Shown here piece after piece: positions 2,947 through 63,063 of a stretch of 64,000 bases of DNA; the first letter of the stretch is position 1, and each line of letters opens with the position of its first letter. Origin of the DNA: Sialis fuliginosa. Lineage: Eukaryota; Arthropoda; Insecta; Megaloptera; Sialidae. Made by a program: the position numbers and the translations under genes. The notes under the pieces are model-generated. The model was given only the letters and a program-made list of their open reading frames with translations. It searched no databases and was not told where the DNA came from. Where the stretch lies: positions 19,379,001-19,443,000 of the forward strand of contig OY540817.1 of the NCBI GenBank assembly GCA_961205875.1, read 5' to 3'.

Positions 2947-3233
2947 AATCGGTAAAATCACTTAAAATTACTACTGGTTTCAACAATTCATATTTTGTAA
3001 ACAATCGTTTGTAATAATGGGTAATGTAGGAATCTACTACGTACTTCCTTTAACATTTTGTTTTGATTATTTGACAACAATCGCAACAATCACTTTAGAA
3101 AAGATGCAGTGAAATATTCTATTATCTGTAATATCATAATAAAGAGTTAAAATTCTTTAGTGTTTGAGAAAGTAGTTCAAATACTGTTTTAAAATTATTC
3201 TTAATTATCAATGAATATGAAACATATATAAAA

Positions 3234-4229
3234 ATGAATATGAACACAAATAAAAACTGCAGACTATGTCTCAGTGACAATACATTAACAATAGATATTT
3301 TTGACGAAAATTCTCAAAAAATGGGAATTCAAGATAATTTAAATAAATATATTCCAATCCAAATTAATAAAAATGATAGTTATTCCACACGAATATGCCA
3401 TAGATGTATAACAGCACTTGAAAATTTTGACACATTTGTAAATAAAGTTAGATATGTTGACAAAGTTTTAAAAACAAATGAGTCAACTTTAGAAAAGTTA
3501 CAAGAAAATTATAACCTGGTAAAAAGTACAAAAGGGCCTCTGATTTACAGAAGAAATAATTTGCCTCAAAAATATTTTAATAGTTCAGATTCTTCTTCGT
3601 TAATAGAATTGACTACATCAAATAATACAAGTATAGAAAAACAGGGAAATGATACTATAAATAAAAATAAAGTATCATTTAATAAAGAAATAGAATTTAT
3701 ATATGTATCCGATGATTCAAGTTCAAAAGAAGGGGGGGAAATACTTGGAAAGTTATATAAAAATCAAATTAATTTAGAGTCAAACAATTTTTTTGATGAA
3801 CAAAATAATTGTCTTTCAATAAATACTAAAAATGGAGAAAAGTTGCCTAAAGACTATTTAAGTTCAGATTTTTGTGATTCATTTTCACCAAATAATGAAT
3901 TATTGACAGAAAAATTTAAAAATACGAACAATGTCAATAAAACAACAAAAATTGTATTTGATTCTGACGATTCAGATTCACAATACGAAATTGATGTAAG
4001 AAAAAAGCCACAAGAAACAAGTTTTAATATAGAAAATCAACCTCACGAATATACATTTAAAAGAGCACTGGATGAATTCAACAAGAAAGAATGCCTTGCA
4101 ATTGAAAAAACCCAAGAAGAAGAAATGTGGACTCAGACATTCAGAAATAGAATTATAAATAGTGATTTTGATAGTCTTAGGTTGACTCCTAACACAGATA
4201 TTGTATTAAAGCGTCTACGAAATTGTTAA
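3234..4229 (+). CDS. ZAD-domain protein without C2H2 fingers
   Basis: Intronless 331-aa protein. The N-terminal ZAD (zinc-finger-associated domain) has its four zinc ligands as CRLC (C9, C12) and CHRC (C55, C58). This is an arthropod-expanded dimerisation domain usually joined to C2H2 fingers in DNA-binding proteins. No C2H2 finger follows. Residues about 100-330 are Asn/Ser-rich and probably disordered, with two hydrophobic-acidic patches, IEFIYVSDDSSS (about 153-164) and KIVFDSDDSDS (about 239-249), that look like SUMO-interacting motifs. A helical, charged C-terminal part follows (about 275-331). It lies 287 bp after BBS4 on the same strand, with an AATAAA about 50 bp past the stop. A scaffold role in chromatin is only inference. 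A second in-frame Met at codon 3 could also be the start. Confidence 0.85.
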   Translation: MNMNTNKNCRLCLSDNTLTIDIFDENSQKMGIQDNLNKYIPIQINKNDSYSTRICHRCITALENFDTFVNKVRYVDKVLKTNESTLEKLQENYNLVKSTKGPLIYRRNNLPQKYFNSSDSSSLIELTTSNNTSIEKQGNDTINKNKVSFNKEIEFIYVSDDSSSKEGGEILGKLYKNQINLESNNFFDEQNNCLSINTKNGEKLPKDYLSSDFCDSFSPNNELLTEKFKNTNNVNKTTKIVFDSDDSDSQYEIDVRKKPQETSFNIENQPHEYTFKRALDEFNKKECLAIEKTQEEEMWTQTFRNRIINSDFDSLRLTPNTDIVLKRLRNC

Positions 4230-11125: not shown

Positions 11126-12472
11126 ATGAAATATTTCGTAATTATTGCAGTATTGGTCGGTATTGTAATCACCAACCCACTTTTGGAAAGAATTCAGCCA
11201 AAAAGTTCTTTGATAGTTTGTGATTCTCAAAAACCTGGCTTCCTTGGACAAATATCACATCATTACGTATGTTATCTATGTTAATATAAATCTAGAGCTG
11301 CACGCTGCTGAGACGAACTTGGCTTAAATTCGGACGAGACGAGACCGAGTCGATATCAACTTTATTTATGTACCACCGAGATCAGAGCCGGCCATAGTAA
11401 GTCTGGCACCTTAGGCGAGATTTATTTTTCCGCCCTCTCACCCCCTAAAAAAATGTTAAAAAATCACCGAAAATGTCAATTAAAATTGATAAATTAACAA
11501 ATAAGTTAAATAATTCATATCTCAGCTTGGCGCGATCCTACAGACTCCAACATTTTTTTAAATATAGCTTACATTATTAACTTTAAGACTATCAAATGTC
11601 CTAAGACCGTCGAGACCTCCTTCCCCTTTTATGAACAAATTAAAATTGATAAATTAACAAATAAGTTGATTAGTTAATATCTCAGCTAATACCTTATTAA
11701 AGGTTTTCTGGGTTGCTGAATAAGGATTTGTTAGTTATCAGCTATCAAATAATCGATTTTTTTTACAAATTAACATTGTTTATATTTAGCTATGTATATT
11801 TTTTGCTTAATCGGGCTTAACAGATCAACAAAAAAAAAAGGTTACTCGAAAATTACTTATGCTCCATTTTGCGCCGCCTCACCTGGTCTGGCACCCCGGG
11901 CGGTCGCCTTGGTTCGCCCCCCCCCCCTAAAGCCGGTACTGACCGAGATTTTTGGTTTTATGGCAATATCAATAATTAGTAAATATTAATTTTGAAAATT
12001 ATTATTTTTTATTACTCGAATACGAATCTCACTCGGCCACGTGTACGAGATCCTGACGAAACTGACTTAATTTTTTACAAAACGAGACGTCAGTTTCAAA
12101 AACCGAGATGAGAAGAAATTGATCTAACTTTAATCTCGTCTGCAGTCCTAAATATATTATTATAATTAAATTTTTCTTGTTAGTCCTGGATAATATTGAT
12201 AATATATTTATATCTTGTTTTTATAGAGTGATCCAGTTTGTGGAGAAATTCTTGAAGAAACTGTTACATATATAGTACCAGGACCGAATGCCGTAATTTC
12301 TTGCATCAAAGCCATAGATCAAGCACAAAACCATGAAGATTTTGAAGCTGATGTGCAAATAATTGATGGTGGACTGTACGAAAGAATGGTTCATTTAAAA
12401 ATTACATCGCACAAAGATAAGGGATATGATTACGAAATTGAATTTAGACTATATGTGCCTCCAGTGTTATAG
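11126..12472 (+). CDS. MBF2-2: secreted MBF2-family protein (subfamily A)
   Basis: Exons 11126-11266 and 12227-12472, phase-0 intron, 128 aa. Signal peptide MKYFVIIAVLVGIVITN is followed by C32 in LIVCDSQKPG. Exon 2 begins SDPVCGEILEETVTYIV, has an additional Cys at 52, then AVISCIKAIDQ (C73), IIDGGLYE and SHKDKGYDYEIEF. The gene sits 1.4 kb after MBF2-1 in the same direction with its own TATA box. Its closest paralog is the second half of the fused MBF2-3 (NDPVSGEILEE, same DSQKPG motif). The intron carries two nested transposons. Confidence 0.88.
11291..12150. mobile_element. Candidate outer hAT-like element in the MBF2-2 intron
   Basis: The left end reads TCTAGAGCTGCACGCTG and the right end GTCTGCAGTCCTA; both subterminal zones are rich in CGAGAC/ACGAGA words. 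Possible 8-bp duplications AATATAAA and AATATATT agree at 6 of 8 positions, so this element is only probable. The hAT-like element 11383-11941 is inserted inside it. Confidence 0.45.
11383..11941. mobile_element. hAT-like MITE carrying satellite-related sequence
   Basis: The element is 559 bp, flanked by a perfect 8-bp duplication ACCGAGAT (11375-11382 and 11942-11949). The left terminus is CAGAGCCGGCC and the right AAGCCGGTACTG. Subterminal sequences TCTGGCACCTTAGGCGAG and CTGGCACCCCGGGCGG match the ends of the large element at 46889-55921. Internally it holds about one and a half units, on the minus strand, of the 184-bp satellite sequence (GATCGCGCCAAGCTGAGATA). There is no transposase. 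Confidence 0.88.
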
Positions 12473-16461: not shown

Positions 16462-19395
16462 ATGAAGTATTTTATTATTATCGCAGTTTTGGTCGGTGTT
16501 GTATTCACTAACCCACTTTTGGAGGAAATTCAGCCAAGAAGTTCTTTGATAGATTGCATTACTGCGACTCCTGGAATCCTTGCAAGAAAGAGCCATCATT
16601 ATGTAAGTTATACTCGTAAAATGTTTACTCAAAATAATAACACAGCTACACAAAAAAAAGTGCGGAGTCAAAAAAGCGACCTACACATATAACATTGTAG
16701 TATTGGTCGAGCATAGTCTAAATTCAAATTTTTGGAATTTTCTGCTTACTAATTTTTTATTTTATTTAAGCTTGAATTTTGGGTTTAGCCAACTTAGTAA
16801 AATTCAACCTAAACCTAAAATTCAAGCTAAAATTTTTGTTGTAAAATATTCCCTTACAAAGATTTATCGAAAATCGTCATTTTTTTAAATTGCTATTTAA
16901 GGCTCTGTCAAACAGGAAGCTGACTGTCCGCTTATTTTGACAAATTTGATATATCCTTTGACATATTAAATGCCATTCTGACGTTTTAAATGTCATTTTG
17001 ACGTTTGCATAAATTTAGATTTAGATTGAAATTGTCAAAAAATAAAAAATATACAAAAAAATAATCTTAAGAAATATTTCGAATATTTTTTAGTAAAATT
17101 GTATACAAATTAAATGGTCAACCAATACCTGTCAATTTATCTGAGCACTTTATCGGTTTTTATTTAAATTGTTAGTATTATAATTAACTACCTTTGGTGA
17201 TTTAAGCACGAGGAAGCATTGTGCATTTACTTGGCAGATGTTTTTTTTTAATATTCCTCCAAAACTGGTTTACAAAAAAAATTGGTGGGAGGGGGGGGGG
17301 GGGGGTGTAAAACTAACGTTTCGCTCTGGGTACCAACCTTCCTTAGACCGCCACTAATAATAGGTATTTAAAATGTATCTTTAATATAATAAACCATACT
17401 GTCAAAAACTGTTATACTTAACATACCATTGTTAATATTGTTATGTAATATGTATCTGGATTTAAGTTATTAAAAATTCTTTAATTTGGAGATGTGCGAA
17501 TACCATTTTAGAGCCCTATCTATATATATTTATAAAAATAAATACATTTTGGTATTTATTTAGTTTTTCTCAAAAAATCCGGAATATATCAATCGAATCG
17601 AACCTGAATGGTTTAATTTAAATTATTCAAAATCTGTATTGATCTCTGTCAAATATAAATGTCGGTTATAAAATGAAACCCTACACTTATTTTTTTATTT
17701 ATTTTTTTGATTTTTGTATAACTTATGCATTTTTAAAGATTTGAACTACTTCAAATTCGATTCGTATTCCTGAAATAAATAAAAATATAAAAAAATATTA
17801 TCTAAAAAAAAAAATTGTTATATAGCATGAACCAGGTTCTGGAATTAGTGAAGTAGTTATTTCATATATTGTACCAGCGAATCCACCGGCAAATGACATT
17901 TACATTACTTGCATCAAAGCCATAGATCAAAAACAAAACCATGAAGATTTTGAAGCTGATGTGCAAATAATACAAGGTGGACTGTACGAGAAAATGGTTA
18001 CATTAAAAATCACATCCCACGAAGATAAAGGATTCGATTATGAAGTTGAAATTAGAATAGATAAGTCTCCAGTTACAACAGTACTGGTTGGCGTTGCACT
18101 CGCTAACCCACTTTTGGAAGAAATTCAACCTAAAAGTTCTTTGATAGTTTGTGATTCTCAAAAACCTGGCGTCATTGGACAAACAACACATCATTACGTA
18201 AGTTATCTATCCTTAATATACAGAGTGGTCTGGTTTGGGATACAGATATTTTAAAAGCTGATTCCTTGGCTTATTTTGAGTAAAAAATTGTACGGGAAGA
18301 GGGTGTCTATCTTCAACACCCTCTGAGATACAGGATGTTTTAAAAATTCCCTCAGAGTATTAATTACAAACAAAGATTATCTCATAACTTCCAAAGTAAC
18401 GTAACTATATAGAGCAACCACAATAAGTCAGTTTCATAGGTAATTAACTAACGTATTTTTCAGTTATTGCTAGCCGTGTTTCCAGTTCCGAGTTATTGCT
18501 CATCAAAGTCCAAAAATATATTTATTTTTTTGAAAATTTTTATGAAAATGACCTTTTTCTCCAAAAGTACCTACAATATGTAGTATTTTTTATCATTAAA
18601 ATAACGTACTGGCACCAGTTATGGCCGCTATAAGAGCAAGTTTTACTGTTTTTGTGATTGACGGGCTTCTTTTCTGTAATTCTCATGAACTCATGTTACT
18701 AATAAAACAAATAACTCTTTATTTAATCAATTTAATTACCAAAGTCCGCAAATATAGTTTTTTTTTTTAATTATAGCCTTTTATTTTGTTTATGTAAGAA
18801 TCGTCAAATTTGAAACAATGTAAAGCAGTTTTTATAATAATATAATAATTATTAAATAAATTATACTAATAATTAGTTTAAATGTTCACCATTTGGACAC
18901 CTATTGGCCGATTGTCTCCAAATCACGCTATAAGACAGTTAAATGTACCTATATATATAGATTAATATTCAGAGCTGATAGTAATCAAATATATATTAAC
19001 AAATATTTCTAATTCAGTACATTTAATTTAAAAATAGCCATTACTGGGATCATATTCAAGACTGCTGCCAGTACCTTATATAATTATTAAATTTTTCTTG
19101 TTGATCCTGGATATTATTGATAATATATTTATATCTTGTTCGACAGAATGACCCAGTTAGTGGAGAAATTCTTGAAGAAACTGTTACATATATAGTACCA
19201 TCAGGACCAAAGCCCGCCGTAATTTCTTGCATCAGAGCCATAGATAAAGCACAAAACCATGAAGATTTTGAAGGTGATGTGACAATTGTTGAAGGTGGAC
19301 TGTACCAAAAAATGGTTGCATTACAAATCACTTCGCACGAAGATAAGGGATACGATTACGAAATTGAAATTAGACTAAGTGAGTCCCCAGTTTAA
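16462..19395 (+). CDS. MBF2-3: in-frame fusion of two MBF2 genes (subfamily A)
   Basis: Exons 16462-16602, 17826-18197 and 19147-19395 give 253 aa with two MBF2 domains. Domain 1 (residues 1-130) resembles MBF2-1: signal peptide, C32, YITCIKAID (C76), IQGGLYE and SHEDKGFDYEVEI. Where the stop should be after DKSPV (residue 130, base 18074), the frame goes on into TTVLVGVALANPLLEEIQPK, the exon-1 sequence of an MBF2-2-like gene without its first residues. Domain 2 (131-253) has C156, NDPVSGEILEE, AVISCIRAIDKAQ and VEGGLYQ. So stop, intergenic DNA and start were removed by a deletion or unequal exchange that kept frame. The second signal-peptide remnant is hydrophobic but short. Introns hold repeats and a MITE. 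Whether one chain or two products form is untested. Confidence 0.85.
16840..17240 (+). repeat. Dispersed repeat D, copy 1
   Basis: Shares TATTCCCTTACAAAGATTTA, TTGACATATTAAATG, TTAAATGGT and TTAAGCACGAGGAAGCA with 57695-58020. Both copies are in the same orientation and non-coding. Here it lies in intron 1 of MBF2-3. Confidence 0.7.
17285..17307 (+). repeat. Poly(G) tract in an MBF2-3 intron
   Basis: GGTGGGA is followed by an uninterrupted run of about 17 G. Similar poly(G)/poly(C) runs occur at 21811-21822, 22032-22043, 33000-33012 and 45570-45581, mostly beside transposon-like sequence. Run length may be affected by sequencing error. Confidence 0.6.
18215..18600. repeat. Dispersed repeat C, copy 1
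   Basis: Reverse-complement match to 28290-28715. Shared words include GATTCCTTGGCT, AAAAAATTGTACGGGAAGAG, TTGCTAGCCGTGTTTCC and GTTATTGCTCATCAAAGT. No coding. Confidence 0.7.
18604..19076 (-). mobile_element. TA-type MITE family M1 (GGTACTGGCACCAG ends), full copy in MBF2-3
   Basis: The left end is GTACTGGCACCAGTTATGGC and the right end GACTGCTGCCAGTACCTTA. Internal landmarks (CGGCCAATAGGTGTC-like, ATTAATATTCAGA) match the better-preserved copies at 33286-33793, 44056-44572 and 46353-55934. It lies within intron 2 of MBF2-3. Confidence 0.8.
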
Positions 19396-28059: not shown

Positions 28060-28275
28060 AGCTCAGATATTAATTATTGAAATTATTTGTTTATTTATTA
28101 ATTTATCAAATTTAATTTGGTTATAATAGGGGAAAGAGGTCGCGACGATCTTAGGGTACTTGGTACTCTTAAAGTTAATGATGTAAGCTATATTAAAAAA
28201 GTTTAAGTCTGTAGTATCGCGCCAAGCTGAGATATTATTTATTTAATTTATTTGTTAATTTATTAAGGGGGAACA
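28060..28275 (+). repeat. Relic of the 184-bp satellite sequence
   Basis: About 1.2 diverged units: AAGCTCAGATATTAATTATT, then GGGGAAAGAGGTCGCGACGA, CTCTTAAAGTTAATGATGTA and GTATCGCGCCAAGCTGAGAT. Plus orientation as in the large array, but with many substitutions and no recognisable transposon ends around it. Confidence 0.75.
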
Positions 28276-46350: not shown

Positions 46351-47590
46351 TAAGGTACTGGCACCAGTCTTAGATGTGACCTCAGTAATAGCTATTTTTT
46401 TATTTTTACTGAATTAGAAATATTTGTTGATAATTGATTACTATAATTTCTGAATATTAATCTATATACATTTAACTGTCTTACAGCGTGATTTGATGAC
46501 AATCGGCCAATAGGTGTCAAAATGGTGGACATTTAAACTAATTATAAGTATAGTTTATTTATTAATTATTATATTATCATAGCAACTGTTTTACATTGTT
46601 TCAAATTTGACGATCCTTTCTTTTATTTATTTTTTATAATCATTGACAAGTGTCCATCACTGCGTGCTCATTACTAGTTTTACTTTATCCATTATTGGAG
46701 AAAAAACAAAACAAAAGGCTATAATTTAAAATACAAACTATATTTGCGGACTTTGGTAGTTAAATTGATTAAATAAAAAGAGTTACTTGTTTTATAAGTA
46801 ACATGAGTTCATGAGAATTACAAAAAAGAAGCTCGTCAATCACAAAAACAGTAAACCTTACTCTTATAGCGGCCATAACTGGTGCCAGCAGAGCCGGCCT
46901 TTGCGATTCTGGCGCCCCAGGCGAGATTTTTTTTGACGCCCCCCCACCCCCCTCCACCGCCACAGTGACGATCATTAAAAATTATCCGCACAAAAAAAAA
47001 AAAAAAGCGTGAGAAAATTATCTTGTTATTAATTCATTAGTGTAATATAATAATATAATATAACATATAATTGATAAATAATATATAATATAACTAAAAT
47101 TATATAAAAGATTTCTTCCTGGCTTTCATATCTGCAAAATTATCGATTGCTGTCTCAAAATTGAGGTTTGCTACAACCTTATTTTCAATTGAAAGAATAG
47201 CAAAATTATTCAACCTATCTTCTATCATAGCCGATTGCAAATAAGTTTTTATGAATTATTTTAATTTACTAAAACTTCTTTCACCACTAGCTACACTAAC
47301 CGGAATTGTTACAAGAATTAGCAAAGCCACCCACAGATTTGGCACTGTGCTTTTCAAGTTTTGTAAAAAAATGTTTAATAAATAATTTATTTTTGATATT
47401 AAGCATTTTATTAAGTAAAATGAATTATATTGCAGAAAAAATCAAAACTATTATTCAAAAAATATATATATAGCTTAAATTTTGCGCCCTAGAACAGAAC
47501 ATAGAAAAAAAGTTTAAAATAATTGGCGCCCCCACGAAATTAGCGCCCCAGGCTGTCGCCTGGGTCGCCTGGTCGTTCGGCCGGCCCTGT

Positions 47591-48584
47591 TTTTTTTTTA
47601 CTTATCCAAGTATTAAACCAATCTATAGATTCTAATAAATTGAAAATTTATCAATAATGATGAACGGATGGCATATTAAAAAAAATATATTGTTACATTC
47701 ATCAGAGTAACCGTTTTTTTAAATTAGAGCGAATTGTCGCTGAAGAAGTATCGACTATCGTCTAATTTTTATAATACGCGTGATTTTGCTAATTAACTTT
47801 TTGTATAGTGTTTACCAGGTATGTACATTGTGATTCATATTATTTATTTGATTTTTTTGTTTCGGTTCTGATATTTATGTAATGGTTTTTATTTGTTAAC
47901 GTATGTTTACATCATGCACTTGTCGAAAGAGCAATAAAACTAAGTTTTGTTAACGAATGTACATATCCTCATTGTTTATAGTTAATAATAATTATATAAT
48001 TTATAAAAATATAATTTTAATAATAAAAAAAAGGTAATATTATTCTCTCCATTATATAACAAGTGATTTTTTTTAACGTAATAACTGAAATCAGATGTTT
48101 ACTCTTGTAAATTTTTGAATTTTCGAATTATTTTTGAAATAAGAAAAAATGTTTTAGATAAAAAATGTCGAGTATGTTATTATCTATAATTTATTCCCTA
48201 TACATTTTTTTCCAACATTTATAATTTAGCCAGAAAGAAATTTTTTATGTAATTATTTAGATTCACCTACACTGTTCACTATCAGTATTACGTATAAGAA
48301 AGTCCCATGGTACCTATGGCAAACAAGCACACTGTTTAATTTCTGTACTACGTATAAGAAAGTCCCATGACACTCATGGCAGATATTTCTCCTCTGTTAT
48401 GAACCATTTGAATTATAATAAAATTGCATGACGTTAACATTTGTTTACAAAGTCAAAAAAATGAAATAAACTTTTATTTTCAAAAAAAGATTTTTTTTAC
48501 TATTTTTCCCTTAAATCTAGCCTACTTCTGCTTCAAAAAATTAATATTTCGTTAAAATAAAAAAAATCATGCAATTAAGGGTTA
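47591..48584. other. Unique segment inside the 9-kb element
   Basis: A T-rich junction, then sequence not repeated elsewhere in the window except a local duplicate ACTACGTATAAGAAAGTCCC at about 48290 and 48350. No usable open frame. Its origin is unknown; it may be captured host DNA. Confidence 0.4.
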
Positions 48585-51500
48585 AAGATAATAGTGTAAG
48601 CTACATTTAAAAAAAAAACTGGAGTCTCCTCGATCGCGCCAAGCTGAGATATTAATTATTCAATTTACTTCTTTGTTAGCGTATGAGTTTTAATTTGTTT
48701 TTTTAGTTTTAACTTGTTTTTAAAAAGGGAAGGAGCACGCGAAGGTCTTTAAGTGCGTGATGCTCTTAAAGATAATAGTGTAAGCTACATTTAAAAAAAA
48801 AACTGGACTCTCTTCGATCGCGCCAAGCTGAGATATTAACTATTCAATTTACTTCTTTGTTAGCGTATGAGTTTTAATTTGTTTTTATAGTTTTAACTTG
48901 TTTTTAAAAAGGGAAGGAGCACGCGAAGGTCTTTAAGTGCGTGATGCTCTTAAAGATAATAGTGTAAGCTACATTTAAAAAAAAACTGGAGTCTCTTCGA
49001 TCGCGCCAAGCTGAGATATTAACTATTCAATTTACTTCTTTGTTAGCGTATGAGTTTTAATTTGTTTTTTTAGTTTTAACTTGTTTTTAAAAAGGGAAGG
49101 AGCACGCGAAGGTCTTTAAGTGCGTGATGCTCTTAAAGATAATAGTGTAAGCTACATTTAAAAAAAAAACTGGAGTCTCCTCGATCGCACAAAGCTGAGA
49201 TATTAACTATTCAATTTACTTCTTTGTTAGCGTATGAGTTTTAATTTGTTTTTTTAGTTTTAACTTTTTTTTAAAAAGGGAAGGAGCACGCGAAGGTCTT
49301 TAAGTGCGTGATGCTCTTAAAGATAATAGTGTAAGCTACATTTTAAAAAAAAACTGGAGTCTCTTCGATCGCGCCAAGCTGAGATATTAACTATTCAATT
49401 TACTTCTTTGTTAGCGTATGAGTTTTAATTTGTTTTTTTAGTTTTAACTTGTTTTTAAAAAGGGAAGGAGCACGCGAAGGTCTTTAAGTGCGTGATGTTC
49501 TTAAAGATAATAGTGTAAGCTACATTTAAAAAAAAAACTGGAGTCTCCTCGATCGCACAAAGCTGAGATATTAACTATTCAATTTACTTCTTTGTTAGCG
49601 TATGAGTTTTAATTTGTTTTTTTAGTTTTAACTTTTTTTTAAAAAGGGAAGGAGCACGCGAAGGTCTTTAAGTGCGTGATGCTCTTAAAGATAATAGTGT
49701 AAGCTACATTTAAAAAAAAAACTGGACTCTCTTCGATCGCGCCAAGCTGAGATATTAACTATTCAATTTACTTCTTTGTTAGCGTATGAGTTTTAATTTG
49801 TTTTTATAGTTTTAACTTGTTTTTAAAAAGGGAAGGAGCACGCGAAGGTCTTTAAGTGCGTGATGCTCTTAAAGATAATAGTGTAAGCTACATTTAAAAA
49901 AAAACTGGAGTCTCTTCGATCGCGCCAAGCTGAGATATTAACTATTCAATTTACTTCTTTGTTAGCGTATGAGTTTTAATTTGTTTTTTTAGTTTTAACT
50001 TGTTTTTAAAAAGGGAAGGAGCACGCGAAGGTCTTTAAGTGCGTGATGCTCTTAAAGATAATAGTGTAAGCTACATTTAAAAAAAAAACTGGAGTCTCCT
50101 CGATCGCACAAAGCTGAGATATTAACTATTCAATTTACTTCTTTGTTAGCGTATGAGTTTTAATTTGTTTTTTTAGTTTTAACTTTTTTTTAAAAAGGGA
50201 AGGAGCACGCGAAGGTCTTTAAGTGCGTGATGCTCTTAAAGATAATAGTGTAAGCTACATTTTAAAAAAAAACTGGAGTCTCTTCGATCGCGCCAAGCTG
50301 AGATATTAACTATTCAATTTACTTCTTTGTTAGCGTATGAGTTTTAATTTGTTTTTTTAGTTTTAACTTGTTTTTAAAAAGGGAAGGAGCACGCGAAGGT
50401 CTTTAAGTGCGTGATGTTCTTAAAGATAATAGTGTAAGCTACATTTAAAAAAAAAACTGGAGTCTCTTCGATTGCGCCAAGCTGAGATATTAACTATTCA
50501 ATTTACTTCTTTGTTAGCGTATGAGTTTTAATTTGTTTTTTTAGTTTTAACTTGTTTTTAAAAAGGGAAGGAGCACGCGAAGGTCTTTAAGTGCGTGATG
50601 CTTTTAAAGATAATAGTGTAAGCTACATTTAAAAAAAAAACTGGAGTCTCTTCGATCGCGCCAAGCTGAGATATTAACTATTCAATTTACTTCTTTGTTA
50701 GCGTATGAGTTTTAATTTGTTTTTTTAGTTTTAACTTGTTTTTAAAAAGGGAAGGAGCACGCGAAGGTCTTTAAGTGCGTGATGCTCTTAAAGATAATAG
50801 TGTAAGCTACATTTAAAAAAAAAACTGGATCGCGCCAAGCTGAGATATTAACTATTCAATTTACTTCTTTGTTAGCGTATGAGTTTTAATTTGTTTTTCT
50901 GGTTTTAACTTGTTTTTAAAAAGGGAAGGAGCACGCGAAGGTCTTTAAGTGCGTGATGCTCTTAAAGATAATAGTGTAAGCTACATTTTAAAAAAAAACT
51001 GGAGTCTCTTCGATCGCGCCAAGCTGAGATATTAACTATTCAATTTACTTCTTTGTTAGCGTATGAGTTTTAATTTGTTTTTTTAGTTTTAACTTGTTTT
51101 TAAAAAGGGAAGGAGCACGCGAAGGTCTTTAAGTGCGTGATGCTCTTAAAGATAATAGTGTAAGCTACATTTAAAAAAAAAACTGGACTCTCTTCGATCG
51201 CGCCAAGCTGAGATATTAACTATTCAATTTACTTCTTTGTTAGCGTATGAGTTTTAATTTGTTTTTATAGTTTTAACTTGTTTTTAAAAAGGGAAGGAGC
51301 ACGCGAAGGTCTTTAAGTGCGTGATGCTCTTAAAGATAATAGTGTAAGCTACATTTAAAAAAAAAACTGGAGTCTCTTCGATCGCGCCAAGCTGAGATAT
51401 TAACTATTCAATTTACTTCTTTGTTAGCGTATGAGTTTTAATTTGTTTTTTTAGTTTTAACTTGTTTTTAAAAAGGGAAGGAGCACGCGAAGGTCTTTAA

Positions 51501-54500
51501 GTGCGTGATGCTCTTAAAGATAATAGTGTAAGCTACATTTAAAAAAAAAACTGGAGTCTCCTCGATCGCACAAAGCTGAGATATTAACTATTCAATTTAC
51601 TTCTTTGTTAGCGTATGAGTTTTAATTTGTTTTTTTAGTTTTAACTTTTTTTTAAAAAGGGAAGGAGCACGCGAAGGTCTTTAAGTGCGTGATGCTCTTA
51701 AAGATAATAGTGTAAGCTACATTTAAAAAAAAAACTGGAGTCTCTTCGATCGCGCCAAGCTGAGATATTAACTATTCAATTTACTTCTTTGTTAGCGTAT
51801 GAGTTTTAATTTGTTTTTTTAGTTTTAACTTGTTTTTAAAAAGGGAAGGAGCACGCGAAGGTCTTTAAGTGCGTGATGCTCTTAAAGATAATAGTGTAAG
51901 CTACATTTAAAAAAAAAACTGGAGTCTCTTCGATCGCGCCAAGCTGAGATATTAACTATTCAATTTACTTCTTTGTTAGCGTATGAGTTTTAATTTGTTT
52001 TTTTAGTTTTAACTTGTTTTTAAAAAGGGAAGGAGCACGCGAAGGTCTTTAAGTGCGTGATGCTTTTAAAGATAATAGTGTAAGCTACATTTAAAAAAAA
52101 AACTGGAGTCTCTTCGATCGCGCCAAGCTGAGATATTAACTATTCAATTTACTTCTTTGTTAGCGTATGAGTTTTAATTTGTTTTTTTAGTTTTAACTTG
52201 TTTTTAAAAAGGGAAGGAGCACGCGAAGGTCTTTAAGTGCGTGATGCTCTTAAAGATAATAGTGTAAGCTACATTTAAAAAAAAAACTGGATCGCGCCAA
52301 GCTGAGATATTAACTATTCAATTTACTTCTTTGTTAGCGTATGAGTTTTAATTTGTTTTTCTGGTTTTAACTTGTTTTTAAAAAGGGAAGGAGCACGCGA
52401 AGGTCTTTAAGTGCGTGATGCTCTTAAAGATAATAGTGTAAGCTACATTTTAAAAAAAAACTGGAGTCTCTTCGATCGCGCCAAGCTGAGATATTAACTA
52501 TTCAATTTACTTCTTTGTTAGCGTATGAGTTTTAATTTGTTTTTTAGTTTTAACTTGTTTTTAAAAAGGGAAGGAGCACGCGAAGGTCTTTAAGTGCATG
52601 ATACTCTTAAAGATAATAGTGTAAGCTACATTTAAAAAAAAACTGGAGTCTCTTCGATCGCGCCAAGCTGAGATATTAACTATTCAATTTACTTCTTTGT
52701 TAGCGTATGAGTTTTAATTTGTTTTTTTTAGTTTTAACTTGTTTTTAAAAAGGGAAGGAGCACGCGAAGGTCTTTAAGTGCGTGATGTTCTTAAAGATAA
52801 TAGTGTAAGCTACATTTAAAAAAAAAACTGGAGTCTCTTCGATCGCGCCAAGCTGAGATATTAACTATTCAATTTACTTCTTTGTTAGCGTATGAGTTTT
52901 AATTTGTTTTTCTGGTTTTAACTTGTTTTTAAAAAGGGAAGGAGCACGCGAAGGTCTTTAAGTGCGTGATGCTCTTAAAGATAATAGTGTAAGCTACATT
53001 TTAAAAAAAACTGGAGTCTCTTCGATCGCGCCAAGCTGAGATATTAACTATTCAATTTACTTCTTTGTTAGCGTATGAGTTTTAATTTGTTTTTTTAGTT
53101 TTAACTTGTTTTTAAAAAGGGAAGGAGCACGCGAAGGTCTTTAAGTGCGTGATGCTCTTAAAGATAATAGTGTAAGCTACATTTAAAAAAAAAACTGGAG
53201 TCTCTTCGATCGCGCCAAGCTGAGATATTAACTATTCAATTTATTTCTTTGTTAGCGTATGAGTTTTAATTTGTTTTTTTAGTTTTAACTTGTTTTTAAA
53301 AAGGGAAGGAGCACGCGAAGGTCTTTAAGTGCGTGATGCTCTTAAAGATAATAGTGTAAGCTACATTTTAAAAAAAAAACTGGAGTCTCTTCGATCGCGC
53401 CAAGCTGAGATATTAACTATTCAATTTACTTCTTTGTTAGCGTATGAGTTTTAATTTGTTTTTTTAGTTTTAACTTGTTTTTAAAAAGGGAAGGAGCACG
53501 CGAAGGTCTTTAAGTGCGTGATGCTCTTAAAGATAATAGTGTAAGCTACATTTTAAAAAAAAAAACTGGAGTCTCTTCGATCGCGCCAAGCTGAGATATT
53601 AACTATTCAATTTACTTCTTTGTTAGCGTATGAGTTTTAATTTGTTTTTTTAGTTTTAACTTGTTTTTAAAAAGGGAAGGAGCACGCGAAGGTCTTTAAG
53701 TGCGTGATGCTCTTAAAGATAATAGTGTAAGCTACATTTTAAAAAAAAAACTGGAGTCTCTTCGATCGCGCCAAGCTGAGATATTAACTATTCAATTTAC
53801 TTCTTTGTTAGCGTATGAGTTTTAATTTGTTTTTTTAGTTTTAACTTGTTTTTAAAAAGGGAAGGAGCACGCGAAGGTCTTTAAGTGCGTGATGCTCTTA
53901 AAGATAATAGTGTAAGCTACATTTTAAAAAAAAAAACTGGAGTCTCTTCGATCGCGCCAAGCTGAGATATTAACTATTCAATTTACTTCTTTGTTAGCGT
54001 ATGAGTTTTAATTTGTTTTTTTAGTTTTAACTTGTTTTTAAAAAGGGAAGGAGCACGCGAAGGTCTTTAAGTGCGTGATGCTCTTAAAGATAATAGTGTA
54101 AGCTACATTTAAAAAAAAAACTGGAGTCTCTTCGATCGCGCCAAGCTGAGATATTAACTATTCAATTTACTTCTTTGTTAGCGTATGAGTTTTAATTTGT
54201 TTTTTTAGTTTTAACTTGTTTTTAAAAAGGGAAGGAGCACGCGAAGGTCTTTAAGTGCGTGATGCTCTTAAAGATAATAGTGTAAGCTACATTTTAAAAA
54301 AAAACTGGAGTCTCTTCGATCGCGCCAAGCTGAGATATTAACTATTCAATTTACTTCTTTGTTAGCGTATGAGTTTTAATTTGTTTTTTTAGTTTTAACT
54401 TGTTTTTAAAAAGGGAAGGAGCACGCGAAGGTCTTTAAGTGCGTGATGCTCTTAAAGATAATAGTGTAAGCTACATTTTAAAAAAAAACTGGAATCTCTT

Positions 54501-55759
54501 CGATCGCGCCAAGCTGAGATATTAACTATTCAATTTACTTCTTTGTTAGCGTATGAGTTTTAATTTGTTTTTTTAGTTTTAACTTGTTTTTAAAAAGGGA
54601 AGGAGCACGCGAAGGTCTTTAAGTGCGTGATGCTCTTAAAGATAATAGTGTAAGCTACATTTTAAAAAAAAACTGGAGTCTCTTCGATCGCGCCAAGCTG
54701 AGATATTAACTATTCAATTTACTTCTTTGTTAGCGTATGAGTTTTAATTTGTTTTTTTAGTTTTAACTTGTTTTTAAAAAGGGAAGGAGCACGCGAAGGT
54801 CTTTAAGTGCGTGATGCTCTTAAAGATAATAGTGTAAGCTACATTTTAAAAAAAAACTGGAGTCTCTTCGATCGCGCCAAGCTGAGATATTAACTATTCA
54901 ATTTACTTCTTTGTTAGCGTATGAGTTTTAATTTGTTTTTTTAGTTTTAACTTGTTTTTAAAAAGGGAAGGAGCACGCGAAGGTCTTTAAGTGCGTGATG
55001 CTCTTAAAGATAATAGTGTAAGCTACATTTAAAAAAAAAACTGGAGTCTCTTCGATCGCGCCAAGCTGAGATATTAACTATTCAATTTACTTCTTTGTTA
55101 GCGTATGAGTTTTAATTTGTTTTTTTAGTTTTAACTTGTTTTTAAAAAGGGAAGGAGCACGCGAAGGTCTTTAAGTGCGTGATGCTCTTAAAGATAATAG
55201 TGTAAGCTACATTTTAAAAAAAAACTGGAGTCTCTTCGATCGCGCCAAGCTGAGATATTAACTATTCAATTTACTTCTTTGTTAGCGTATGAGTTTTAAT
55301 TTGTTTTTTTAGTTTTAACTTGTTTTTAAAAAGGGAAGGAGCACGCGAAGGTCTTTAAGTGCGTGATGCTCTTAAAGATAATAGTGTAAGCTACATTTTA
55401 AAAAAAAACTGGAGTCTCTTCGATCGCGCCAAGCTGAGATATTAACTATTCAATTTACTTCTTTGTTAGCGTATGAGTTTTAATTTGTTTTTTTAGTTTT
55501 AACTTGTTTTTAAAAAGGGAAGGAGCACGCGAAGGTCTTTAAGTGCGTGATGCTCTTAAAGATAATAGTGTAAGCTACATTTAAAAAAAAAACTGGAGTC
55601 TCTTCGATCGCGCCAAGCTGAGATATTAACTATTCAATTTACTTCTTTGTTAGCGTATGAGTTTTAATTTGTTTTTTTAGTTTTAACTTGTTTTTAAAAA
55701 GGGAAGGAGCACGCGAAGGTCTTTAAGTGCGTGGTGCTCTTAAAGATAATAGTGTAAGC
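48585..55759 (+). repeat. Satellite array, about 39 copies of a 184-bp monomer
   Basis: Head-to-tail units spaced 183-184 bp, landmark GATCGCGCCAAGCTGAGATA and GGAAGGAGCACGCGAAGGTC. Variants include ATCGCACAAAGC, GGACTC with TTTTTATAG, and a 12-bp-shorter type (ACTGGATCGCGCC) with TTTTTCTGG. Between about 49696 and 52600 these variants recur with an eight-monomer period (about 1.47 kb). From about 53000 on the units are almost identical apart from A-run length. There are stops in all frames and no gene. Confidence 0.97.
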
Positions 55760-55936
55760 TAGAAAGCAGAAAAAATCAAAACTATTATTCAAAAAATATA
55801 TATAGCTTAAATTTGGCGCCCTAGAACAGAACATAGAAAAAAAGTTTAAAATAATTGGCGCCCCCACGAAATTAGCGCCCCAGGCTGTCGCCTGGGTCGC
55901 CTGGCCGTTCGGCCGGCCCTGGGTGCCAGTACCTTA

Positions 55937-60446: not shown

Positions 60447-61568
60447 ATGAAGTTATTCATTTTATTATTTGTAGTTTATTACCTCATCGATTTTGGTAGC
60501 AGTTCTCCAAGAAATACTATTGTTGAATGTGATATAACAACTCCGGGGGAAATAACGTATTCAGAAAATCCAGAAGTAAGAATAAAATAATATGTAGATG
60601 GCTAAAATGAGTTAAGTTTTAAGAAATATATTGCAATTATTGATATTTTCTTTAATTCGCAGGATTTTATATATTTTTGATGAAAAACTAAAAGTTAAAC
60701 AAATATCTTTTAGCAAAAGTCTATTCATTCTATCAATATTTTCTATGCTTTATTCTTTCAAATATGAATTGATATGAATTCTCCCATTATAATAATTGGG
60801 TGGCAATTTAAAAATTTCTGGATAGCCCCCCAGCTGTCTACCTTATATAAAACATTGAATCAGCTTTTATTTTGACATGTAAGAATTAATTAAAATTAAA
60901 ATAATTTTAATTAGAAATGGGGCATTCCGTTAAACAGAAGATACAAAACAATCCTATACCAGGCAGAATTAGGACGTGAAATTAGCTGCATAAATATAAC
61001 CGACTTGATGCAAGGTTCATTATGGTACGCTGCAGACGCCGAAATTAGCAACGGTGGAATTAGGAAGGACTTTGTGATTATACGGATTGTTTCGCATCTG
61101 AGCAAGGGATTCAAGTTTAGCGTACAAATAAGTACGAGGCTCATCACAACAACTACTGCATCTACTGAATCTACTTCTACTGAGTCTACTTCTACTGAAT
61201 CCACTTCCTCTGAGTCTACTTCTACCGAATCTACTTCTACGGAATCTACTTCTACTGAGTCTACTTCCTCTGAGTCTACTTCTACAGAATCTACTTCCAC
61301 TGAGTCTACTTCTACGGAATCTGCTTCTACCGAATCTACTTCTACGGAATCTACTTCCACTGAGTCTACTTCTACGGAATCTGCTTCTACCGAATTTACT
61401 TCTACGGAATCTACTTCCACTGAGTCTACTTCTACGGAATCTGCTTCCACTGAGTCTACACCTACAGAATCTACTTCTACTGAATCCACTTCCTCCGAGT
61501 CTACTTCTACGGAATCTACTTCTCCTAAACCTCCTGAATATTATTTTCTATTAAACGATGAAATTTGA
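60447..61568 (+). CDS. MBF2-11: MBF2-family protein with a mucin-like repeat tail (subfamily D)
   Basis: Exons 60447-60575 and 60915-61568, phase-0 intron, 260 aa. Signal peptide MKLFILLFVVYYLIDFGSS, then SPRNTIVECDITTPGEIT (C28), KWGIPLNRRYKTILYQ, REISCINITDLMQG (C68; N-glycosylation site NIT), ISNGGIRKD and SHLSKGFKFSVQISTR. From about residue 121 to 245 the chain is about 24 copies of the pentapeptide TSTES with SSES and ASTE variants, ending SPKPPEYYFLLNDEI. Such Ser/Thr runs are usual O-glycosylation sites. ATG 60447 is chosen over an upstream in-frame Met because it lies after the initiator and starts the signal peptide. Confidence 0.88.
61155..61525 (+). repeat. 15-bp coding minisatellite in MBF2-11
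   Basis: Tandem 15-bp units of the type TCTACTTCTACGGAA with third-position changes only. Several larger blocks (for example ACGGAATCTGCTTCTACCGA) recur, showing recent unit exchange. Confidence 0.9.
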
Positions 61569-61966: not shown

Positions 61967-63063
61967 ATGAAGTTGTTGGTTCTGATAGTGTTTTCTTATT
62001 TTGTCGAATCGTCAAGTGGACAACAAAGAAGTACTATTATTGAGTGCGATGAAACAAATATTGGGAGATTGACGTATATTAATACACCATCGGTAAGTGC
62101 AAATGCCAATTAACTTCCAGCTAACGCTATCTGCTAGGTGTCAAGTTGTTATGAAATTGCTCGATATTTTAAAGTAGTGGGGCGAGTCCAGACTAACCGC
62201 TACTTTTACTGACTTTTTGTTTTATTTATTTTTTACGTAAAAAGTTCACTTCTTGATAAATTGACGCCTAAATGGTAAGAAACAATAAGAAAGAACATCT
62301 TTTTCATTATAACTGATAAATTTTAAATTAATCAACAGTATTTTGTTTTCAACTTTCATAGAAATTAAAGTAAGCATCCTAGATAAAATTATAAAAATAT
62401 TTTTTGGCAGATATAAATTTGAAAACAAAATATTAATTACTATTTTATTCAATTTTGTGGCAGCATTTCAAAATGCACCAATGACAGATCGTTAAATTTG
62501 ACCAAAGGCTACTACAACATTTCTAATTGCCCCCATGTTAAATTTCCTATGTCTTAATCAACTTGGAATACACTGTATATTATATCTCAATATCGATCAA
62601 AGTTAAATTTTAATTTTGACAATTTTAGAAATGGGGTATCCCGTTCATGCGACAATACAAGATAATCCTGTTCGAAGCAGCAGAAGGGCGAGAAATAAGT
62701 TGCGTAAAACTGGTAGAATTACGGCCTCTTTCATTCTGGAACGGTGCAGATGCTGAAATAGTAAGTGGAGGAATAATGAGACATTTCGTTTTAATACGTA
62801 TCGTATCGTATCTAGGAAAAGGGTTTAAATACCTCGTACAAATCAATACAAGGGAAAAGACAATAGTGTCTACAACTAGAAATCCTAGCACAGATTATCA
62901 TACTATCACATCAACCACAGGAAGTTCTACTATGACGGATTCTACAGTTACTATTGCAAGTACAAGCAGTAATAATTTTACAAATAGCTCTACTATCTCG
63001 CCTGAAAGCACTGCAAGCTTTAGTACGACGAGTACTCCAATTAGAGCTGGGCGCGGGTCGTGA
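61967..63063 (+). CDS. MBF2-12: MBF2-family protein whose last exon is cut by a MITE (subfamily D)
   Basis: Exons 61967-62092 and 62629-63063, phase-0 intron, 186 aa as it stands. Signal peptide MKLLVLIVFSYFVESSSG, then STIIECDETNIGRLT (C27), KWGIPFMRQYKIILF, REISCVKLVELRP (C67), IVSGGIMRH and SYLGKGFKYLVQINTR. A Ser/Thr-rich, non-periodic tail begins near residue 115. At 63042 a hAT-like element interrupts the tail, so the frame ends IRAGRGS with a stop inside the element. Without the insertion the frame would run on in Ser/Thr-rich sequence to a TAA at 63564-63566. The MBF2 domain itself is intact, so a working protein is still likely. The intron contains repeat F (62300-62575). Confidence 0.85.
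62300..62575 (+). repeat. Dispersed repeat F, copy 2, in the MBF2-12 intron
   Basis: Same orientation as 35660-35940 and ending at the same TCAACTTGGAATAC. Confidence 0.72.

Follow-up and report, generated by a model that had tools for sequence, protein, structure and literature searches.

A probable satellite-carrying hAT macrotransposon in the genome of Sialis fuliginosa

Does a tandem array that lies between the ends of a hAT-type transposon descend from that transposon, or did the transposon come to the array? This question is raised by a 184-bp repeat in a 64,000-nucleotide stretch of the Sialis fuliginosa genome (GenBank assembly GCA_961205875.1, contig OY540817.1; C9:19379001-19443000), which we call the window. 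The scattering of satellite arrays along chromosomes is an old problem, for which circles or repeat-generating transposons are the usual answers, and a preliminary description of the window had proposed that the array grew inside a hAT-like transposon from the transposon's own sequence. We compared the locus with its copies in the assembly (392 Mb, 20 contigs) and consider it very likely that the array is the cargo of a hAT macrotransposon: a satellite received first a TTAA-flanked miniature inverted-repeat transposable element (MITE), here called pB, and then a hAT MITE, E1, after which a duplication occurred and the whole spread as a unit.

Structure of the composite

The 184-bp repeat forms long head-to-tail arrays of near-identical units and is therefore satellite DNA. 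The 39 complete units of the window array show a mean pairwise identity of 97.9% with gaps counted as differences, and variant blocks recur approximately 5 and 8 units apart. A 39-copy array between hAT-type ends with an 8-bp duplication, as given in the preliminary description, was confirmed (39.1 copies, GGTGCCAG on both sides). The block begins with CAGAGCCGGCC at 46889 and finishes with GGCCGGCCCTG at 55921; coordinates of its parts are listed in Table 1. The same two sequences are the ends of E1 and form short terminal inverted repeats of the CAG...CTG type, which is a hAT trait, and the evidence for a hAT transposase in E1 consists of a C-terminal remnant only.

A complete E1 copy (E1a) opens the block, and the last 156-158 bp of E1 are found a second time at 55766-55921 with 97.5% identity (E1b). 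The stretch of 992 bp that separates the first E1 from the array (pBR) is similar neither to hAT nor to the unit, and no match to the 184-bp unit was found in E1 or pBR at E<=0.01. The unit-free complete E1, the second copy of its end, the 992 bp of pBR and the orientation of the array had all been overlooked in the preliminary description.

In five other composites (L031, L033, L034, L036 and L037), the array is followed by approximately 79 bp (pBL) and then by a second E1, which is mostly nearly full-length, whereas the window copy is without these 79 bp and without most of the second E1. Because the five composites keep them, pBL and most of E1b must have been lost from the window copy, and the block is, on this comparison, a deletion derivative of a composite with the order E1-pBR-array-pBL-E1. 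Two E1 copies in direct orientation thus flank the intervening DNA, with a new duplication at the outer ends only, as in a hAT macrotransposon.

In copies with both junctions, a perfect 16-bp inverted repeat encloses the array, reading TGCAATTAAGGGTTAA before and TTAACCCTTAATTGCA after it; in L031, one base beside the left copy is altered. By their sequence, these repeats are the ends, directed into the array, of the TTAA-flanked piggyBac-like MITE pB, of which pBR and pBL are the two parts. The terminal inverted repeats of pB start with CCY (CCCTTAATTGCA...TGCAATTAAGGG), a piggyBac-like trait. A TTAA duplication flanks pB on both sides in L124 and on the left in L122, where the right end is inexact, and one TTAA copy is altered in each of L121 (TTTA/TTAA) and L123 (TTAA/TTAG). 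The unit at the pB site reads GATGCTC-TTAA-AGATAATAG; because the unit carries TTAA at the pB junction, pB was placed at the TTAA of a unit.

E1 in turn lies within pB. Its left flank before E1b is TTTTTTAC in L031, L033 and L037; on the right, E1 is flanked in L031 and L033 by TTTTTTAC and then TTATCC, and the T-run of this right flank comprises ten residues in the window, L032, L034 and L036. Because the same insertion duplication is found on the inner sides of both E1 copies, both go back to one shared E1 insertion. In L034 and L036, E1b has the same small deletion at its inner left end. Circular permutation of array-pBL-E1-pBR-array gives the order E1-pBR-array-pBL-E1. In L031 (3340-3520), the final 92 bp of pBR are duplicated ahead of the array.

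Copies across the genome and their insertion sites

Genome copies were located by pattern search; a DNA similarity search with the whole unit, which skips very common words, returned nothing. The unit core CGCGCCAAGCTGAGATATTAA had 5458 matches in the genome (2630 and 2828 on the two counts) and its reversed control had none, and exact-pattern scans of viral_contigs and genome_contigs yielded 0 matches to the core. Allowing up to two mismatches, we counted 158 matches to the pBR-array junction and 178 to the array-pBL junction, with 0 for the reversed-pattern controls. Pairing and classing used the exact matches listed, so that any copy with one or two mismatches is counted but unpaired (for example L031 at the pBR junction and L121 at the pBL junction). 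The pairing covered 85 of the 87 pBR places and 100 pBL places listed on C1-C8; the two remaining pBR places, at the end of C8 beyond the listed pBL places, and all pBR places on C9-C10 lay outside it.

In total, 69 composites were paired, with arrays of 6 to 101 units and a median of 3129 bp or 17 units, and in 63 of them the array length was within 12 bp of a whole number of units. The identity between units of different composites (98-99%) matches that between units inside one composite, and the nearest relative of a unit lay in its own locus at a frequency of 0.43, compared with 0.18 expected. The first 100 unit matches on C1 (0.19-3.05 Mb) include seven arrays with a 184-bp period, of which six are composites; around the seventh (L015, 5.2 units), E1 and pB are absent within its 3-kb locus. 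In six other composites that were read through, pB sequence adjoins the array on both sides in five; in L032, which like the window copy is without the right-hand pB part, it does so on the left. On C1 (47 Mb), all exact composite junctions listed lie either in the first 9.6 Mb or beyond 44.9 Mb, and exact E1 left ends were listed mid-contig as well.

We examined the ends of 27 composites, seven in a first set and 20 further ones, and obtained both ends in 20. Nineteen of these 20 have a perfect 8-bp duplication and one matches at 7/8, and all 20 duplications differ. Six of the first seven are perfect (TTTATTAG, GATGTACA, ACCGGTAA, CTAATAGC, ACCAGCAC and GGTGCCAG), and in the seventh (L036) the right end is gone; both ends were present in 14 of the 20 further composites, of which 13 are perfect and one is the 7/8 case. 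For the 27 composites, 45 flanks of 150-400 bases were compared; they have only short stretches in common and no shared insertion site. Because of these duplications and flanks, together with the identity of the copies in this one assembly, it is strongly supported, and most likely, that each composite inserted independently and moved as a whole unit.

E1 is also missing at or near its exact ends in four of the 20 further composites (E1a in #3 and #10, E1b in #19, both in #14). Complemented terminal bases are the footprint of hAT excision, and in #10 two junction bases are turned to their complement, which is a clear case of this type (CAAGAAGT to CAAGAAGA, then A; L058/L093). Number 19 is equally clear (TTTTTTAC to TTTTTTAG plus one extra A; L100). 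The other two cases are weaker: #3 has lost one T, and #14 is ambiguous, with only GGACCA common to both sides. Among other trimmed composites, part of E1b is gone in #2, and E1a is without its left part in #16. An internal-deletion breakpoint at E1 position 46-49, in the T-run near the left end, recurs in L032, L037 and several other trimmed composites, and it might fit aborted gap repair at the T-run.

Order of events and alternative explanations

A 22-base pattern for pB without interruption at the E1 site matched four places exactly and two with two mismatches; the four exact places were read. Two of them (L123 and L124) hold elements of the pB family surrounded by unrelated DNA; these have 1.7 and 2.55 kb between their ends and are partly diverged from pBR (80-94% over most pieces). 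In the other two (L121 and L122), a 184-bp array contains a pB of approximately 1.05 kb at a unit's TTAA, without E1 in it and without bounding E1 in the stretches read, and this pB is 98% identical to pBR. Because L121 and L122 show pB in the array without E1, array and pB were joined before E1 arrived; in principle, perfect excision of E1 could restore a pB site of this type. With L015, at least three 184-bp arrays lie outside composites. The free array of L121 (1-200, 3340-3560) is flanked by a direct duplication of approximately 165 bp of neighbouring DNA, and therefore free arrays also spread without transposon ends.

The simplest order of events would thus be array, pB, E1, composite. 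Arrays that lack the E1 ends or are older than the element, which the preliminary description had named as speaking against its proposal, are found for E1 at L121, L122 and L015, and for the window element the interpretation is most likely reversed, with the transposons having come to the satellite.

The proposed history would begin with a pre-existing 184-bp array, as the arrays without E1 suggest. pB would then have inserted at the TTAA of one unit, the state seen in L121 and L122, and E1 into pB at TTTTTTAC, to which the 8-bp duplication and the uninterrupted pB copies point. Next, pB with its E1 would have come to be present twice with array between the copies; this duplication follows from the sequence, and it may have arisen by unequal exchange within the array or through an extrachromosomal circle. 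A hAT transposase supplied in trans would have acted on two outer ends, the left one of one E1 copy and the right one of the second, so that E1-pBR-array-pBL-E1 moved as one unit, many times and each time with its own 8-bp duplication. Copies would since have gained or lost whole units, and some would have been trimmed; the trimming is seen, and we infer its mechanism.

The order and the duplications of the composites would be the same if circles of array-pBL-E1-pBR had recombined homologously into pre-existing solo E1 elements and kept the solo's duplication. Solo elements do exist. We counted 358 E1-type left ends in the genome (<=2 mismatches), and among the 100 exact ones listed (C1-C5), 38 are outer composite ends, 11 are inner ends, 7 more lie upstream of a pBL junction and 44 are neither, a classing by exact junction lists that puts the known composite L032 among the 44. 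Twenty of the 44 places were read. Fourteen hold complete elements with matching duplications, two are E1 followed by pBR and thus of the composite type, one has a right end without a matching flank, and in three the right end is absent within the stretch read. The 8-bp duplication of the superfamily is accordingly found at 8/8 in 12 and at 7/8 in 2 of the 20 solo candidates, and at 8/8 in all but one of the 20 testable composites. The outer right ends of L031 and L033, which differ at two sites while the rest of E1b is alike, also fit integration of circles. However, the 14 complete solo elements are mostly 78-94% identical to E1 in the longer aligned pieces, whereas the outer E1 segments of composites have a mean divergence of only 0.84% on the left (10 sequences) and 0.86% on the right (20 sequences). 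Because the outer segments are far less diverse than the solos, integration of circles is unlikely and movement of the whole composite is most likely; the middle of C1, with exact E1 left ends and without listed composite junctions, also speaks against such integration.

Growth of the array inside a hAT element from that element's sequence is still less probable. In its favour, the array has hAT ends on either side and differs in length between copies, and an element of the window at 11383-11941 (el11) holds approximately 1.3 units with direct repeats of approximately 50 bp that could seed amplification; arrays flanked by el11-type sequence occur at L035 (137-bp units) and L046 (162-type units). 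Against it, E1 and pBR are free of units, the array adjoins pB and not E1 at intact junctions, the pB-containing arrays of L121 and L122 already contradict it for E1, and el11 belongs to another family and has another orientation. The hAT-bounded position and variable length in the preliminary proposal hence stand, but not the origin from the element's own sequence, and for E1 itself such growth was ruled out. Segmental duplication or an assembly artefact that multiplied a single composite has a negligible probability, since, although arrays are difficult to assemble, the 20 duplications differ, the flanks have no common insertion site and sites of E1 excision are found.

Several observations weigh against the proposed macrotransposon. 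The source of the transposase that would have moved the composites is one we infer, and no autonomous copy was found. One solo element (L104) is close to the composite E1, with 97% identity. The inner E1 segments are more variable than the outer ones, at 1.7% on the left (5 sequences) and 3.7% on the right with a maximum of 12% (9 sequences), and variable E1 sites sort uncleanly into E1a and E1b lineages; because they give no clean lineages, some exchange between E1 copies has probably happened. Among the exact matches listed, 16 of 85 pBR places and 31 of 100 pBL places are unpaired, and array sizes could be altered by assembly errors. Finally, the donor order array-pBL-E1-pBR-array was not seen: among the 100 pBL and 85 pBR exact places, pBL followed by pBR within 4 kb occurred 0 times, in a scan that also missed both known array-pB-array loci, so that this absence says little.

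Related repeats, other features and comparison with known systems

The element el11 had been regarded as an unamplified member of the family of the window element. Its satellite units on the minus strand (approximately 1.3) are real, but E1 and el11 do not have the high identity at both ends expected of one family: the left ends are 79% identical over 63 bp, the right ends are without a BLAST match, and all ends show a loose likeness in a multiple alignment. Relative to the left end, the array also has the opposite orientation to the units in el11, and by BLAST of the ends and by orientation, el11 was ruled out as an unamplified copy. The relic described at 28060-28275 likewise contains a real unit-like stretch (28060-28266), but BLAST with E1 and with the 11383-11941 element detected no hAT end beside it.

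In the el11 family, approximately 1.3 units sit at a fixed place, and an el11 left end lies beside a unit in L017, L025, L027, L040, L041, L042 and L046. Units of 162 bp form short arrays of varying phase and are 89-92% identical to the 184-type, and the 184-bp unit looks like a 162-bp unit with an internal duplication of approximately 19-22 bp. In ten short 162-type loci, chosen by hand from 22 fetched on C1 because BLAST found no el11 end beside their units (L021 and L022 overlap), a hAT-like end motif is absent in seven and is present elsewhere in the locus only in L042 and L044. L046 (1610-2714) contains a 162-type array between el11-type ends that adjoins the el11 core. In L035 (4532-5237), el11-type sequence flanks four to five units of 137 bp on either side, a separate multiplication of units inside a hAT element. 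A further subfamily, a 161-bp array approximately 77% identical to the 184 type, is present in L039 (2828-4001) and continues past the fetched end. The el11 family may be either the source of the satellite or a taker-up of its units.

Elsewhere in the window, reading frames with an MBF2 domain lie at 60915-61568, 62629-63063 and 17826-18254, the first of which includes a 24-copy 15-bp repeat (61161-61523) that encodes a serine/threonine-rich sequence, and a frame with a zf-AD domain lies at 3168-4229 (E=3.7e-15). Both families are typical of insects and point to such a host.

Table 1. Positions of repeats and transposon parts in the window
Feature	Position	Strand	Basis or remark
Left 8-bp target site duplication GGTGCCAG of the composite	46881..46888	.	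read directly; same as 55922-55929
E1a, complete 701-bp hAT MITE (CAGAGCCGGCC...GGCCGGCCCTG), outer left copy	46889..47589	+	near-identical copies in other composites
hAT transposase C-terminal dimerisation remnant in E1a, one in-frame stop	47109..47369	-	Pfam PF05699, E=8.6e-10; coordinates derived by hand from the reading frame
Right copy of E1's own insertion duplication, expanded T-run (T10 AC)	47590..47601	+	TTTTTTAC in L031 and L033
pBR, right part of the putative TTAA-flanked piggyBac-like MITE pB, split by E1	47590..48581	+	
60-bp tandem duplication within pBR	48269..48381	+	
Putative pB right end with TTAA, TGCAATTAAGGGTTAA	48570..48585	+	perfect inverted repeat of TTAACCCTTAATTGCA (array/pBL junction in composites keeping pBL)
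Satellite array	48582..55761	+	Tandem Repeats Finder: period 184, 39.1 copies, 97% matches, score 13758
Deletion junction GAAA, pBL and most of E1b gone	55762..55765	+	comparison with L031, L033, L034, L036 and L037
E1b remnant, final 156 bp of the second E1, outer right end	55766..55921	+	
Right 8-bp target site duplication GGTGCCAG	55922..55929	.	read directly
el11, hAT MITE of a related but different family	11383..11941	+	ACCGAGAT at 11375-11382 and 11942-11949
Satellite-like units in el11, approximately 1.3	11478..11690	-	opposite orientation to the array
Satellite-like units, approximately 1.3, hAT ends undetected	28060..28266	+	82% identical to a stretch in 11383-11941

Macrotransposons are mainly known from maize, where Ac/Ds, like E1, belongs to the hAT superfamily. 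Composite insertions in maize are stated to have a macrotransposon structure, with the capacity to transpose and rise in copy number (PMC4270019). As in the maize Ac/Ds macrotransposons outlined there, 8-bp duplications are found here and the termini of two nearby elements would act together with the intervening DNA; unlike them, the composites form a dispersed family (158 and 178 junction copies) in an insect-like host, and their cargo is a satellite array of variable length with a split TTAA MITE (PMC4270019). The Tetris foldback element with TIR-220 repeats of Drosophila virilis similarly has units of approximately 200 bp in a DNA transposon, with variable copy number and long arrays, but these repeats belong to the element's terminal repeats and were amplified from within, whereas here the array would have preceded the transposons (PMC4079207). 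In Xenopus tropicalis, satellite arrays such as miDNA4 are likewise carried by non-autonomous DNA transposons, but the miDNA4 monomer is described as having originated inside a single Tc1/mariner MITE (PMC9659126), whereas an older array would here be enclosed by two hAT MITE copies. TCAST repeats of Tribolium are likewise scattered in euchromatin, but for most of the sampled 184-bp arrays a vehicle and target duplications are identified here (PMC3411249, PMC5844308). Among the titles and abstract openings listed in literature searches (10-25 rows each), there was no natural high-copy macrotransposon carrying a satellite, which is no proof of absence.

It is possible, though doubtful, that the satellite thereby became a mobile element itself, one that trapped two MITEs, duplicated one of them, gained working hAT ends and seeds arrays that drift in length. 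If the satellite also descends from el11-type elements, the genome would show a complete cycle in which a transposon gives a satellite and the satellite becomes a transposon again. One genome retains free relatives of the MITE pB, the satellite with this MITE inserted and numerous copies of the assembled vehicle, so that capture and spread can be traced base by base, and the 69 sized copies of one array are material for measuring the expansion and contraction of tandem repeats. The finding suggests that natural proliferation of macrotransposons is possible in an animal.

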